A stretch of 64,000 nt of DNA from Pedobacter sp. Leaf170 (GTDB lineage: Bacteria > Bacteroidota > Bacteroidia > Sphingobacteriales > Sphingobacteriaceae), in contig NZ_CAKLBP010000004.1 of NCBI RefSeq assembly GCF_920984665.1, positions 124,001 through 188,000 on the forward strand. Direction: 5' to 3'. Of the stretch, positions 1,964 to 63,804 are shown one piece after another (the stretch's first letter is position 1; every line of letters begins with the position of its first letter). A program made the position numbers and the translations under genes. Under the pieces are notes generated by a model, which worked only from the letters and a program-made list of their open reading frames with translations, had not been told where the DNA came from and ran no database searches.

Positions 1964-2116
1964 TTGGTTCGATTTAATTAATTCTACTAATTGAATTTAA
2001 ATTGTAATACTTTAAGCGTATTCAAGATATGAAAAGCAGTTTCTCTGGTTCTTTTTAATGTTAGTCCTGCTATTCACTTCGATCTTTTTTAAACTCATTG
2101 TCATGCGCCCCAACAT

Positions 2117-2148
2117 CGTCATTGCGAGGAGGAACCAAGTGGCAATCT
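2117..2148. repeat. single-arm copy of the CGTCATTGCGAG dispersed repeat
   Basis: One short copy of the window-wide repeat, in the GAGGAGGAACCA variant ending in GGCAATCT. The outer ATTGC and GCAAT words can pair, giving a small hairpin. It lies in the 359-bp gap between argB and proC together with a full two-arm copy; I see no gene or promoter in the rest of that gap. Confidence 0.8.
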
Positions 2149-2204
2149 TTATGGTTTGTTCCACTAAAAAAGTATTTTCGTTTCTATCAGGTTTATAAAA
2201 TCTC

Positions 2205-50146: not shown

Positions 50147-50245
50147 AGCCCTTCATAGCAGCAAAAACTTAAGTTATCTAAACGGGATTGAAGCGGCATC
50201 TCCCGATTTTTCATCGGGAATATAGCGTAAAGCCCGACGGACCAT
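50147..50245. repeat. mosaic repeat with TCCCGATTTTTCATCGGGA hairpin
   Basis: GGGATTGAAGCGGCATC followed by the hairpin TCCCGATTTTTCATCGGGA (50201-50219) and TATAGCGTAAAGCCCGACGG. It is related in word content to the other mosaic repeats of the window. It lies between the DUF1801 gene and tex. Confidence 0.6.
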
Positions 50246-59935: not shown

Positions 59936-60718
59936 TTACAGATGCGTTACAAAATCCCTAATCGCAGCACCCGGATTATCGGTTTTCATAAAATTTTCAC
60001 CAATTAAAAAGCCGTTAAAACCAGCATTTCTAAGTTCTTTTATCGTTTCCGGATTGCTAATTGCACTTTCCGAAATCTTCATAAACTCATTCGGTATTTT
60101 ATTAACCAAATCAAAAGAAGTTTGGATATTAACCGTAAAATCAGCCAAATTTCTATTGTTAACACCAATTGCATCTAAATTAGGGCAAATACTGCGTTCT
60201 AATTCTTCCAAATCGTGAACTTCTAACAATACATTTAAGCCCAAACTTTGTGCAAATTTGCCGTAATCGCTAATTTCCTTTGGAGTTAATATTGCAGCGA
60301 TTAAGAGAATAATATCCGCACCCCAGGCTTTAGCTTCCAGAATCTGGTATTCATCAATAATAAAGTCTTTTCTTAAAACCGGAATATTGTTGGCTGCTCT
60401 GGCTGCAATTAAATCTTCGGTTTTACCGCCAAAAAAATCAACATCTGTTAAAACAGAAAGCGCAGAAGCACCGGCATCGCTGTAGGCTTTGGTAACTTCA
60501 GCAACATCAGCAATTCCATTTATTAAACCTTTGGATGGTGAACGACGCTTGAACTCTGCAATAATTCCGTTTCTATCATCAGCCAAAAGGAAATCTTTAA
60601 AAGAATATGGTGTACGGTTAAAATTAGTCGATTGCTCTAAATCAGCAACTGAAACCAACTGCTTTGCATCAGCAACTTCTTCTTTTTTACGTAATACAAT
60701 TTTATCTAAAATAGTCAT
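59936..60718 (-). CDS. trpC: indole-3-glycerol phosphate synthase
   Basis: A 260-residue TIM-barrel enzyme of tryptophan synthesis. The signature EFKRRSPSKG is at residues 55-64, and VLRKDFIIDEYQI, LLEVHDLEELE, IGVNNRNLADF and SESAISNPETIKEL follow. It is monofunctional (no TrpF fused). It lies after trpG with only a palindromic repeat between them; trpD is absent from its usual place, and trpF, trpB and trpA do not follow. Confidence 0.95.
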   Translation of the reverse strand: MTILDKIVLRKKEEVADAKQLVSVADLEQSTNFNRTPYSFKDFLLADDRNGIIAEFKRRSPSKGLINGIADVAEVTKAYSDAGASALSVLTDVDFFGGKTEDLIAARAANNIPVLRKDFIIDEYQILEAKAWGADIILLIAAILTPKEISDYGKFAQSLGLNVLLEVHDLEELERSICPNLDAIGVNNRNLADFTVNIQTSFDLVNKIPNEFMKISESAISNPETIKELRNAGFNGFLIGENFMKTDNPGAAIRDFVTHL

Positions 60719-60799: not shown

Positions 60800-61402
60800 T
60801 TAACTGGTCAACCAGTTCTCCATCATTTGTTTACCATATTCGGTAAGCACACTTTCAGGATGGAATTGTACACCCCGAACATCTAGTGTTTCGTGTCTTA
60901 AAGCCATGATTTCGCTCTTGTGGTCTCTTGCTGTGATTTTTAAACAATCCGGAAAATTCTCTTTACTTACTACCCAACTGTGGTATCGCCCAACATTAAT
61001 GGTTTGCGGGCATTCCCAAAATAAAGATTCATCGCCATCTACAACCGTAACCGGAGTAGCAATACCATGCATTGGTCTGCCAAGGTTTAAAAGCGTTCCT
61101 CCAAAAACTTCGGCTATGGCCTGCTGACCTAAACATACGCCAAAAATACTTTTTGTGGCTGCATAAGTTTTTATTACATCAAGAAGCAAACCCGCTTCCT
61201 CCGGAATTCCCGGACCTGGAGATAACAAAATCTTATCGTATTTATCTACATCAGCAAGCTCAAATTTATCATTACGCCACACTTCAGCTTCATAACCAAC
61301 CTCATTAATCAAATGAACCAGATTGTAGGTGAAGCTATCGTAATTATCGATTACAAGAACCACCCCCTTGCCCCCTGAAGGGGGAATATTACTATTATTC
61401 AT
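60800..61402 (-). CDS. trpG: anthranilate synthase component II (glutamine amidotransferase)
   Basis: A 200-residue class I amidotransferase supplying ammonia to TrpE; it may also serve PabB. The catalytic Cys90 is in IFGVCLGQQAIAEVFGG, the oxyanion region is LSPGPGIPEEAG, and the catalytic His is in VRGVQFHPESVLTEYG. Homologues start M-K-x-LVIDNYDSFTYN; here about 14 extra residues (NNSNIPPSGGKGVV) precede VIDNYDS and are encoded by a C/G-rich palindromic repeat. trpE lies upstream, separated by 77 bp. Confidence 0.94.
   Translation of the reverse strand: MNNSNIPPSGGKGVVLVIDNYDSFTYNLVHLINEVGYEAEVWRNDKFELADVDKYDKILLSPGPGIPEEAGLLLDVIKTYAATKSIFGVCLGQQAIAEVFGGTLLNLGRPMHGIATPVTVVDGDESLFWECPQTINVGRYHSWVVSKENFPDCLKITARDHKSEIMALRHETLDVRGVQFHPESVLTEYGKQMMENWLTS
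61359..61388 (-). repeat. CCCCCTTC-AGGGGG palindromic repeat at the start of trpG
   Basis: On the minus strand ATTCCCCCTTCAGGGGGCAA then GGGGGTGGTT codes for IPPSGGKGVV at TrpG residues 6-15. It resembles the intergenic element at 40654-40695 in its ATTCCCC ... GGGGGTGG frame. A further C/G-rich fragment (CTCCCCTTTATGGGTTTGGG) sits at 61459-61478 in the trpE-trpG spacer. Confidence 0.72.
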
Positions 61403-61479: not shown

Positions 61480-62877
61480 TTAAATCTCTTTCGCCATTTC
61501 AACTGCTTTTCTAAGCGCAGCAATTTTATTATTCACTTCCTGCATTTCAGTTACAGGTACAGAATCGGCTACAATTCCGGCGCCAGCACGATAATGCAAT
61601 TCATTATTTTTACTCATAAAAGTTCTAATCATTATGGCATGATTAAAATCTTCGTTAAAGCCCATAAAACCTATTGCACCTGCATAGAAATTTCTACCTA
61701 GTTTTTCGTTTTCATCAATTAATTGCATGGCTTTATATTTTGGCGCACCACTTAAAGTTCCGGCCGGATAAGTATCTGCCACAACTTTAAAAGCGCTAAC
61801 ATCATCTTGCAAATGGCCGCTAACTTTACTAACGAGGTGTATTAAGTGAGAATAATATTGAACTTCTTTGAATGATTTAACCTCAACGCGATTACAATGC
61901 CTGCTTAAATCGTTTCGAGCCAAATCTACAAGCATCACATGTTCTGCACTTTCTTTTGGGTCTTGCTCTAACTTTTTTGCCTGCTCTGCATCTTCCACAT
62001 CATTACCACTACGTTTAAAGGTTCCGGCAATTGGGAAAATATTTGCAGTATTATTTTTTATGGTGATTTGTGCCTCCGGCGATGAACCGAAAAGCTTAAA
62101 GCTGCCGTAATCGAAGTAAAATAAATACGGCGATGGATTTATAGAACGAAGGCAACGGTAAACATTAAATTCATCGCCAGTAAATGCTTGCTTAAAAGCT
62201 CTTGATGGCACAATTTGAAAAACATCACCACGGTAAATATGCTTTTGAAGTTTTTCTACCAAATCGATAAAGCCCTGGTCGGTAAGGTTTGATTTTTCTT
62301 CGCCTTTGGTTTGAAATTTATATTCAGGATAGTTTTTATTCTGAATTAAATATTCCATTTTCTCCAAACCACTTTCTTCCTCGCCTTCAAATGAATTTCT
62401 AAACAAAGTGATTTCATTTTTGAAATGGTCTATAGCAATAATATATCGGTATAAGTGGTACTGCATTTCAGGAATTTCCTCACCATCTGGTGTTTCAGAA
62501 CTGAACTTAATATCTTCGAAGTGCTGTACGGCGTTCCAGGTAAAATAGCCAAACAAACCGCTGGTAATAAATTTAATTTCAGGGATTTCGGTTTCCTTAA
62601 ATTTATCTTTAAAATCCACAATTTCTTCAGTTAAGTTTTCTGTTTCCTTAATCTCAACGGTTCCGTCGGGGAAATAAGTTTCCAACCGATTTCCTTTTAA
62701 AATAATTCCGGCAACAGGCTCTGCACAAACAAAACTCATAGAATTTTCTCTACTATGGTAATCAGAACTTTCTAATAAAATACTATTCGGATAAACATCG
62801 CGAAGGCGAAGGTAAATACTAACCGGAGTAGTGGTATCGGCAAGCATTTTCTTGTATTGTGTATTTATTTTAAACAT
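61480..62877 (-). CDS. trpE: anthranilate synthase component I
   Basis: A 465-residue chorismate-using enzyme. The tryptophan feedback site is near NSILLESSDYHSRENSMSF (residues about 31-49). The chorismate-binding core has YRGDVFQIVPSRAF, LFGSSPEAQITI, HVMLVDLARNDLSRHC, and PAGTLSGAPKYKAMQLI. Together with TrpG it makes anthranilate. Transcription should be controlled by the attenuator at 62945-63103. A single-arm palindromic repeat lies between the attenuator and its start. Confidence 0.95.
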   Translation of the reverse strand: MFKINTQYKKMLADTTTPVSIYLRLRDVYPNSILLESSDYHSRENSMSFVCAEPVAGIILKGNRLETYFPDGTVEIKETENLTEEIVDFKDKFKETEIPEIKFITSGLFGYFTWNAVQHFEDIKFSSETPDGEEIPEMQYHLYRYIIAIDHFKNEITLFRNSFEGEEESGLEKMEYLIQNKNYPEYKFQTKGEEKSNLTDQGFIDLVEKLQKHIYRGDVFQIVPSRAFKQAFTGDEFNVYRCLRSINPSPYLFYFDYGSFKLFGSSPEAQITIKNNTANIFPIAGTFKRSGNDVEDAEQAKKLEQDPKESAEHVMLVDLARNDLSRHCNRVEVKSFKEVQYYSHLIHLVSKVSGHLQDDVSAFKVVADTYPAGTLSGAPKYKAMQLIDENEKLGRNFYAGAIGFMGFNEDFNHAIMIRTFMSKNNELHYRAGAGIVADSVPVTEMQEVNNKIAALRKAVEMAKEI

Positions 62878-62885
62878 TATCTTTT

Positions 62886-62917
62886 CGTCATTGCGAGGAG
62901 GAACGACGAAGCAATCT
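62886..62917. repeat. single-arm CGTCATTGCGAG repeat between attenuator and trpE
   Basis: CGTCATTGCGAGGAGGAACG then ACGAAGCAATCT, the single-arm variant. It lies in the untranslated leader of trpE, 8 bp before the start codon on the minus strand. Confidence 0.8.
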
Positions 62918-62944
62918 CTCCCCTTTTGAATTATTATTATAAAA

Positions 62945-62981
62945 ATAAAAAGCCCGGCGTGTGGTTCTACGCCGGGCTTTA
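62945..62981 (-). terminator. trp attenuator terminator
   Basis: On the minus strand AAGCCCGGCGT and ACGCCGGGCTT form an 11-bp GC-rich stem around AGAACCAC, followed by TTTATTTTT. It lies between the leader peptide and trpE, so it must regulate trpE. The stem's left arm can pair instead with GCGCCGGCT of the leader coding region (about 63031-63039), as an antiterminator. Confidence 0.85.
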
Positions 62982-63020
62982 ATGGTTCTTTTTAAGATTT
63001 AGGATGATAGAATATTTTCA

Positions 63021-63089
63021 TCATACGCAGCCGGCGCAATTCTGTTTTGAATTACCTTGCCAAAGCCATGCATGTATATTGTTAATCAT
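63021..63089 (-). CDS. trpL: trp leader peptide with Trp-Leu-Trp
   Basis: A 22-codon frame runs from ATG at 63089 to TGA at 63021. It contains HAWLWQGN with Trp codons at residues 8 (63066-63068) and 10 (63060-63062), and ends NCAGCV. The codons for the last six residues lie in the segment that can pair with the terminator's left arm. A ribosome stalled at the Trp codons would leave that segment free (antitermination), while one reaching the stop codon would cover it (termination). A -7 promoter element sits six bases before the ATG. Trp codons in tandem before a terminator and trpE make this a classical attenuation leader. Confidence 0.82.
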   Translation of the reverse strand: MINNIHAWLWQGNSKQNCAGCV

Positions 63090-63095
63090 ATAGAG

Positions 63096-63103
63096 CAAAA
63101 ATA
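63096..63103 (-). promoter_or_regulatory. -7 element of the trp operon
   Basis: On the minus strand TATTTTTG matches TAnnTTTG. The leader ATG begins six bases later, so the leader mRNA is expected to be nearly leaderless. No strong -33 TTTG is seen. Confidence 0.55.
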
Positions 63104-63357: not shown

Positions 63358-63804
63358 TTAAGAAATACCAAAAAAGCTTCTTCCCGGAACTTCTTTAACC
63401 ATAAGGGCAATAGATACAATGATGATAAGTAAACCCAAACCAAAAAAGGTGGCAATAGTACGATGTTTAGCCACAGCATCGGCAACTTTTTTTGATTTCG
63501 CATTACCAACGGTAATTAAAATAATTGCGATAATCATCATGCTGATGTGTTCCATTTTAAAATAACGAACCGCAGGCGCACCTTTACTGCTCATAGCATA
63601 CCAACCTTCGGTAAAATAAAGCACCAATCCGATAAGCAACTGGATGTGTGCACTAATTAAGGTAAACACGTTTAACTTTCTATTGCCTTCAGTGTAAGGT
63701 TTGTTGCCAAACCAGCCCGATAATGCTTTAACTACGGCAACAATTAGTAATGCAAAAACAACATAGCGCCAACCTGAATGCGCACTTTTTAGAATTTCGT
63801 TCAT
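63358..63804 (-). CDS. four-helix membrane protein (cytochrome b-like)
   Basis: A 148-residue integral membrane protein with four helices (WRYVVFALLIVAVVKALSG, VFTLISAHIQLLIGLVLYF, HISMMIIAIILITVG, FFGLGLLIIIVSIALMV). Conserved-looking His residues fall in or next to helices (KSAHSGWRY, SAHIQLL, KMEHISMM, KHRTIA), a pattern consistent with b-type haem. The protein resembles small Bacteroidota membrane proteins annotated as cytochrome B-like; no function is proven. Confidence 0.72.
   Translation of the reverse strand: MNEILKSAHSGWRYVVFALLIVAVVKALSGWFGNKPYTEGNRKLNVFTLISAHIQLLIGLVLYFTEGWYAMSSKGAPAVRYFKMEHISMMIIAIILITVGNAKSKKVADAVAKHRTIATFFGLGLLIIIVSIALMVKEVPGRSFFGIS

Follow-up and report, generated by a model that had tools for sequence, protein, structure and literature searches.

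Ribosome-mediated attenuation of the trp operon is textbook knowledge for E. coli, and the locus described here raises the question of whether trpE and the genes behind it are controlled in a comparable manner in Pedobacter sp. Leaf170 and, if so, how far this control extends among its relatives. In a preliminary description of the window, i.e., the whole stretch of 64,000 nucleotides that was analysed, a complete attenuator was proposed before trpE. The analysis reported here supports that reading in substance; judging from the sequence and from folding models, trpEGC is very probably controlled by a ribosome-mediated transcription attenuator (probability of about 0.9).

The trpE leader and its terminator

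All the features considered in this section lie on the minus strand. The gene for anthranilate synthase component I, trpE, occupies 61480..62877 with its ATG at 62877, and its best family in profile searches is TIGR00564 trpE (E 1.3e-124), with 416.7 bits against a higher curated cut-off of 517.7. It is followed by trpG (60800..61402) and trpC (59936..60718), both identified by their frames and by profile matches. Upstream of trpE, a -7 promoter element of the type TAnnTTTG, TATTTTTG, was read at 63103-63096. Behind it runs a leader peptide frame of 22 codons, MINNIHAWLWQGNSKQNCAGCV, from the ATG at 63089 to the TGA at 63021, which is recognised by its sequence and conservation and carries two Trp codons (63068-63066 and 63062-63060) in a W-L-W arrangement. 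From the alignment of related leaders, the inner hairpin of the 1:2 pairing is formed by GTAATTC and GAATTGC (63036..63055), and segment 2, the antiterminator strand GCGCCGG, is located at 63037-63031. Segment 2 pairs with CCGGCGT in segment 3, which is the left arm of the terminator (62969..62980), and segment 4 is the right arm (62949..62960), as delimited by folding and alignment. The terminator, AAAGCCCGGCGT-AGAACCAC-ACGCCGGGCTTT (62980-62949), has 12 pairs, eight of them G-C, and a T-rich tract was read behind it at 62942..62948.

The -7 box, the Trp frame, the complementary segment and the terminator thus stand in order before trpE. The preliminary description had given this order, with HAWLWQGN within the 22-codon frame, and it is confirmed with coordinates right within a few bases; its terminator with a T tract also stands, with 12 pairs in place of the 11 bp reported. 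The window was scanned for any short frame that has near-adjacent Trp codons and a strong terminator behind it; one site was returned, the trpE leader, and the same combination was found in none of 40 dinucleotide-shuffled windows. The fold of the leader has a z value of -4.48, and none of 200 shuffles was as good.

Conservation and covariation in the genus

A TrpE search kept 80 of 344 relatives, 75 of them named Pedobacter and five being metagenome-assembled genomes named at the level of family, order or phylum. Two of these loci (L073 and L076) come without upstream DNA, and the usable close loci number 78 (74 named Pedobacter and four metagenome-assembled genomes). The preliminary description had looked to related genomes for conservation of the Trp codons and of the alternative pairing, and both were found: a Trp-x-Trp leader is present in 78/78 loci, and both stems covary. 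The commonest leader motifs are HTWLWQ or HTWQWR, with variants that include HSWLWQ, NTWQWR, HTWQWP and HTWHWQ, and in two of the 78 the start codon is GTG. Together with the window and six more loci, these form a genus set of 85 that includes identical leaders, 70 being distinct; another 30 genus loci (L081-L110) were left out of all counts except for 19 used in the comparison of linker-trpD pairing described below.

When the 70 distinct leaders were aligned, 94.5% of the cells in the 3:4 terminator stem were paired, with two-sided changes at 4 of its 12 pairs. The 2:3 antiterminator had 85.9% of its cells paired and two-sided changes at 3 of 7 pairs, and the inner 1:2 hairpin 91.6% and 4 of 7 pairs. 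The cells changed on both sides number 58 for 3:4, 35 for 2:3 (C-G to U-A and C-G to A-U exchanges) and 8 for 1:2, and in each case these numbers were reached by 0/500 shuffles, which ignore relatedness and yield fractions that are not probabilities. Sliding the structures by 1-3 columns as a control lowered the pairing to 17-54% of cells. In L027, L036 and L078 the change is triple, with CCTGC in the left arm and GCAGG in both the right arm and segment 2. The complementarity between the codons at the end of the frame and the left arm of the terminator, already noticed in the preliminary description, is a pairing that covaries in the genus. Other measures are less favourable: the antiterminator is short in one Pedobacter clade, where one of its end pairs is lost in 28 and the other in 32 of the 70 rows, one inner terminator pair is broken in 13/70 rows, the number of 2:3 pairs with two-sided changes (three) was matched by 63/500 shuffles, and the number of pair types is not above that of the shuffles for either 3:4 (469/500) or 2:3 (203/500).

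In several leaders (L010, L016, L019, L020 and others) a deletion of two bases after the Trp codons shifts the frame, so that the peptide ends in NELRWLRMNKI instead of CAGCV; the nucleotides of segment 2 are unchanged in these leaders. Since segment 2 survives deletions that shift the frame, the end of the frame is kept for the RNA rather than for the peptide. It had been proposed that the C-terminal sequence of the peptide is itself part of the switch; this is so for the RNA segment that encodes it, while the peptide end is not conserved. The unpaired linker between segment 2 and the terminator, TATAGTTTATCAACCTAAACC (62982-63020 in the window, minus strand), is nearly invariant in most genus rows. 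The window's own copy of it is degenerate, and TCAACC occurs in the linker of 13/41 family loci outside the genus.

A predicted switch between alternative folds

The leader was folded in three states, with the footprint of the ribosome, of assumed size, imposed as unpaired bases. For the window, with the RNA made to 62961, placing a Trp codon in the A site gave 2:3 a predicted probability of 0.99-1.00, which fell to 0.05 when the ribosome was left out and to 0.00 when it stood at the stop codon; the models thus agree with the earlier proposal that a ribosome stalled on the Trp codons would free segment 2. Once the whole leader was made, the terminator prevailed in every state (3:4 probability of 0.96-0.97), and antitermination must therefore be kinetic. 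The same behaviour was predicted across 85 genus, 41 family and 32 class loci, for which the mean number of expected 2:3 pairs was 8.9, 9.6 and 10.2 in the stalled state, 4.2, 4.6 and 2.0 without a ribosome, and 3.6, 3.7 and 5.2 in the stalled state with a shuffled linker. Stalled 2:3 pairing exceeded at least 19 of 20 shuffles in 55/85 genus, 30/41 family and 17/32 class loci, and the switch itself, i.e., the stalled value minus that without a ribosome, did so in only 33/85, 18/41 and 21/32 loci.

It had also been proposed that a ribosome at the stop codon masks segment 2. In the window this was borne out by the models; as a general rule it was not, given that the assumed footprint of a terminating ribosome shares bases with segment 2 in only 37/85 genus, 26/41 family and 27/32 class loci. 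In the folds, a ribosome in that position still costs 2:3 two or more pairs in 65/85, 35/41 and 31/32 loci. The models thus indicate that direct cover of the switch segment by a ribosome at the stop codon is not conserved, and masking by the terminating ribosome may be indirect.

The following sequence of events is envisaged. Transcription would begin a base or two upstream of the leader AUG. With ample Trp-tRNA, the ribosome would read through both Trp codons, segment 2 would lie under the ribosome or be paired back to the region of the Trp codons, 3:4 would form, and transcription would stop before trpE. With scarce Trp-tRNA, the ribosome would stall at the Trp codons and leave segment 2 free to pair with segment 3 before segment 4 exists, and RNA polymerase would continue into trpE.

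The start of the leader transcript

An exact TAnnTTTG box ends 4-8 nt before the start of the leader in 84/85 genus, 28/41 family and 10/33 class loci, where shuffles give an expectation of about 1.1, 0.4 and 0.2 loci, respectively. Overall this spacing was found in 122/159 loci; an exact box that could be used is absent from 23/159, and some gaps measure 9-56 nt. In Flavobacterium psychrophilum the sigma-A box is reported at -12 to -5 (PMC9723704). With a gap of 4-8 nt, transcription would accordingly begin 0-4 nt ahead of the leader's start codon. For the window the predicted start is 63091, leaving a 5' UTR of 2 nt (63090..63091, minus strand), as judged from the position of the box. The promoter box thus suggests that the leader mRNA is nearly leaderless, a trait that would be less general outside the genus. 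In F. psychrophilum leaderless mRNAs are given as 5.5% (PMC9723704), and in Bacteroides thetaiotaomicron 5' UTRs shorter than 10 nt as about 3.7% (PMC7366714). If confirmed, such a start would provide a test case for fast loading of ribosomes and their coupling to RNA polymerase without Shine-Dalgarno pairing.

Leaders beyond the genus

TrpE matches at E<=1e-80 were obtained in 50/61 family genomes and 49/149 class genomes, from which up to 600 bases upstream of trpE were taken at 93 loci, six of them from the genus; left out were G065 (broken match), G040, G131 and G150 (match at a contig end), and G071 and G108 (genus). By an automatic criterion, 80/93 of these loci have before trpE a short frame whose Trp codons stand close together, in many cases as WWW; these are 41/45 from the family outside the genus, 33/42 from other families of the class and 6/6 from the genus; one of the 80 (L173) stands at a contig end, has no terminator and is probably spurious. 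Adding the window and its 78 close loci gives 159 leader loci, and a hairpin with a T-rich tail stands behind the leader in 158 of them, as detected with a laxer finder, the strict one having overlooked terminators with mismatches in some loci of the second Pedobacter clade. Among the 13 loci where Trp codons do not stand close together, single- or spaced-Trp frames were seen by eye in L128, L135, L137, L150, L158, L159, L162 and L186, and no Trp frame was seen by eye in L164 and L179. In the remaining three (L187, L188 and L190) trpB stands first. Three trpB-first operons were checked (G200, G167 and G231, with trpB identified by eye from similarity), and in all of them the leader stands before trpB; the leader therefore appears to accompany the first gene of the operon.

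The pairing of segments 2 and 3 was also examined by exchanging partners between species. In 73 loci outside the genus the mean was -13.19 kcal/mol with the own partner versus -9.68 kcal/mol with that of other species, and none of 2000 permutations reached the own-partner pairing, to which a shared base composition of each genome could contribute. This shows that segments 2 and 3 changed together across loci outside the genus. Taken singly, 2:3 gave p<=15/300 in 46/85 genus, 26/41 family and 14/32 class loci in a test that included the loop and was chosen after the result with the terminator arm only had been seen (p<=10/200 in 27/41 family but 4/32 class loci). The loop was added because GAACAGC pairs with GCTGTTC, which runs into the loop. 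The 1:2 hairpin alone gave p<=10/200 in 49/85 genus, 9/41 family and 13/32 class loci.

A predicted second attenuator of a split pathway

In this genome the trp genes stand in two places: trpEGC lies in the window, and another contig carries trpD, trpF, trpB and trpA, of which trpB was named by TIGR00263 and the other three were identified by eye from their frames. A second leader of the WWW type, MIIKNLNNNWWWHNDIC, stands before trpD-trpF-trpB-trpA (L215, G000:C3:328900-331000, minus strand) and has a hairpin with a T-rich tail behind it. With 420 bases read upstream of each locus, such a leader was found in 48/54 trpD loci of the genus and family, this genome and the best 30 of 50 trpD matches included, and 47 of these have a terminator; two of the six loci without a leader have short flanks. 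Both units of the split pathway thus carry a predicted attenuator.

Relation to known systems

Weinberg et al. (2010) listed the Bacteroid-trp motif (RF01692) for Bacteroidetes as likely cis-regulatory (PMC2864571), and a paper of 2019 noted its presence upstream of the F. psychrophilum trp operon (PMC6414381). A transcriptome paper of 2021 described strong clues to leader-peptide attenuation before amino-acid operons (PMC9723704), and Naville and Gautheret (2010) gave Proteobacteria and Actinobacteria as the only groups with leader-peptide systems then known, and added Firmicutes (PMC2965389). In Streptomyces lividans leaderless trp leaders were described, together with a second Trp leader before trpS (PMC8079986). 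These reports extend the mechanism beyond Proteobacteria, where the preliminary description had called it best known. For Sphingobacteriaceae no experimental work on trp attenuation was found in the open-access literature.

RF01692 and the element in the window have in common that they are Trp leader RNAs and that they stand before Bacteroidetes trp genes; the window differs in having W-L-W instead of a WWW leader and in the sequences of the segments. At its gathering score of 49 bits the model finds nothing in the window or in the genome, and relaxing the search to E 1 brought no match in the leader. The cut-off was passed by 5/149 class genomes in a search whose filters lose some weak matches, and only L204 passed among nine further leader loci. 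The model does match the leader before trpB in G200, with the frame MRTILVNTYWWWHSVQLTRS, at 90.7 bits. The kind of attenuator is thus already predicted for the phylum, and the window is a member beyond the reach of the published model. What is added here is the wider occurrence of trpE leaders, the leaders of trpB-first operons, the WWW attenuator before trpD and the prediction of a near-leaderless start. The leader family known from a narrow Rfam model is widened to most of the sampled class loci that bear trpE, and short Trp-rich frames before trp genes in these genomes merit annotation as trp leaders.

The window shares with trpL of E. coli a short frame with close Trp codons, the predicted 1:2, 2:3 and 3:4 pairings and a terminator before trpE. 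It differs in that the trp genes stand in two units, each with a predicted attenuator, and in that a -7 box of the Bacteroidota type stands 6 nt before the start codon, too close for a Shine-Dalgarno leader to fit in if the predicted start is right. A leader peptide that starts at or near the transcript start would be a trait in common with Sinorhizobium, from which the leader sequence differs. The same likeness and the same difference apply to S. lividans (PMC8079986), and in both comparisons the near-leaderlessness of the Pedobacter leader is deduced from the promoter box only.

Alternative explanations

The hairpin could simply be the terminator of the gene upstream, in which case the small frame would have arisen by chance; in favour of this, a same-strand frame has its end at 63358. 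That frame has an inverted repeat of its own behind it (about 63305-63261, by eye); moreover, the genus conserves the promoter box and Trp codons together with segment 2 and the hairpin, a Trp leader with a hairpin stands before trpE, trpB or trpD in many relatives, and the combination did not arise in the shuffled windows, all of which makes this explanation extremely improbable. Hardly more probable is a leader that binds a metabolite or tRNA (a riboswitch or T-box) and merely carries the small frame along. The conserved unpaired stretch between segment 2 and the terminator would suit it, as something besides base pairing may act there; on the other hand, no riboswitch or T-box was found in the window at Rfam gathering scores or in the leader up to E 1, and close Trp codons persist although the surrounding RNA diverges. 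The search of the leader region up to E 1 gave 17 weak Rfam hits, all under their gathering scores and taken as chance, including the highest, RF04312 trpB, with 27 of 59 bits.

The trp leader RNA of Sinorhizobium acts in trans, and attenuation might likewise be accompanied here by a trans action of the terminated leader RNA through its linker. This is unlikely, if less so than the two preceding explanations. In its favour, conservation of the linker extends past the frame in most genus rows, and the TCAACC found in other linkers of the family also fits. Against it, the mean complementarity between the linker and the trpD region, the one target searched, was no better than with shuffled linkers (z -0.3 over 19 genomes, two of them at z -2.9), and the trpD unit has its own attenuator. 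Attenuation at trpE by the leader itself remains the preferred reading. A broader proposal would be that Trp synthesis in the class Bacteroidia is run by attenuators on essentially leaderless leader mRNA, an exception where leaderless mRNAs are rare, that in Sphingobacteriaceae two attenuators with different leaders, at trpE and trpD, keep the split pathway in step, and that further control comes from the unpaired linker conserved in the trpE leader; taken as a whole this is tentative, and we would give it slightly less than an even chance.

Other leaders and elements

Comparable frames were observed before other amino-acid genes. Upstream of an aspartokinase (thrA-like) gene (L212 and L216) there is a Thr/Ile-rich leader, MIFNTSIITTIIITTGINQRG, followed by a GC-rich hairpin; its make-up resembles thrL of E. 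coli, and it was found in 22/24 genus loci, the other two having short flanks. His-rich frames precede hisG in 24/24 genus loci (L208 and L240 among the loci read; LNHHLHLHHRR in L240, with an in-frame ATG upstream), with a weak A+T-rich hairpin behind them by eye. Before the genes up to ilvD (L209) there is a Leu-rich leader, MLNLLLLNILPGKKMGCF, and a terminator. At gathering score, the Rfam matches in the whole window are a tRNA and two Flavo-1 RNAs only, the latter at 50176-50243 (plus strand) and 2059-2198 (minus strand). The window also contains 18 copies of a repeat core, CATTGCGAGG, versus 0.08 expected; these include five inverted pairs 40-50 bases apart, and one copy lies at 62885-62918, between the terminator and trpE.
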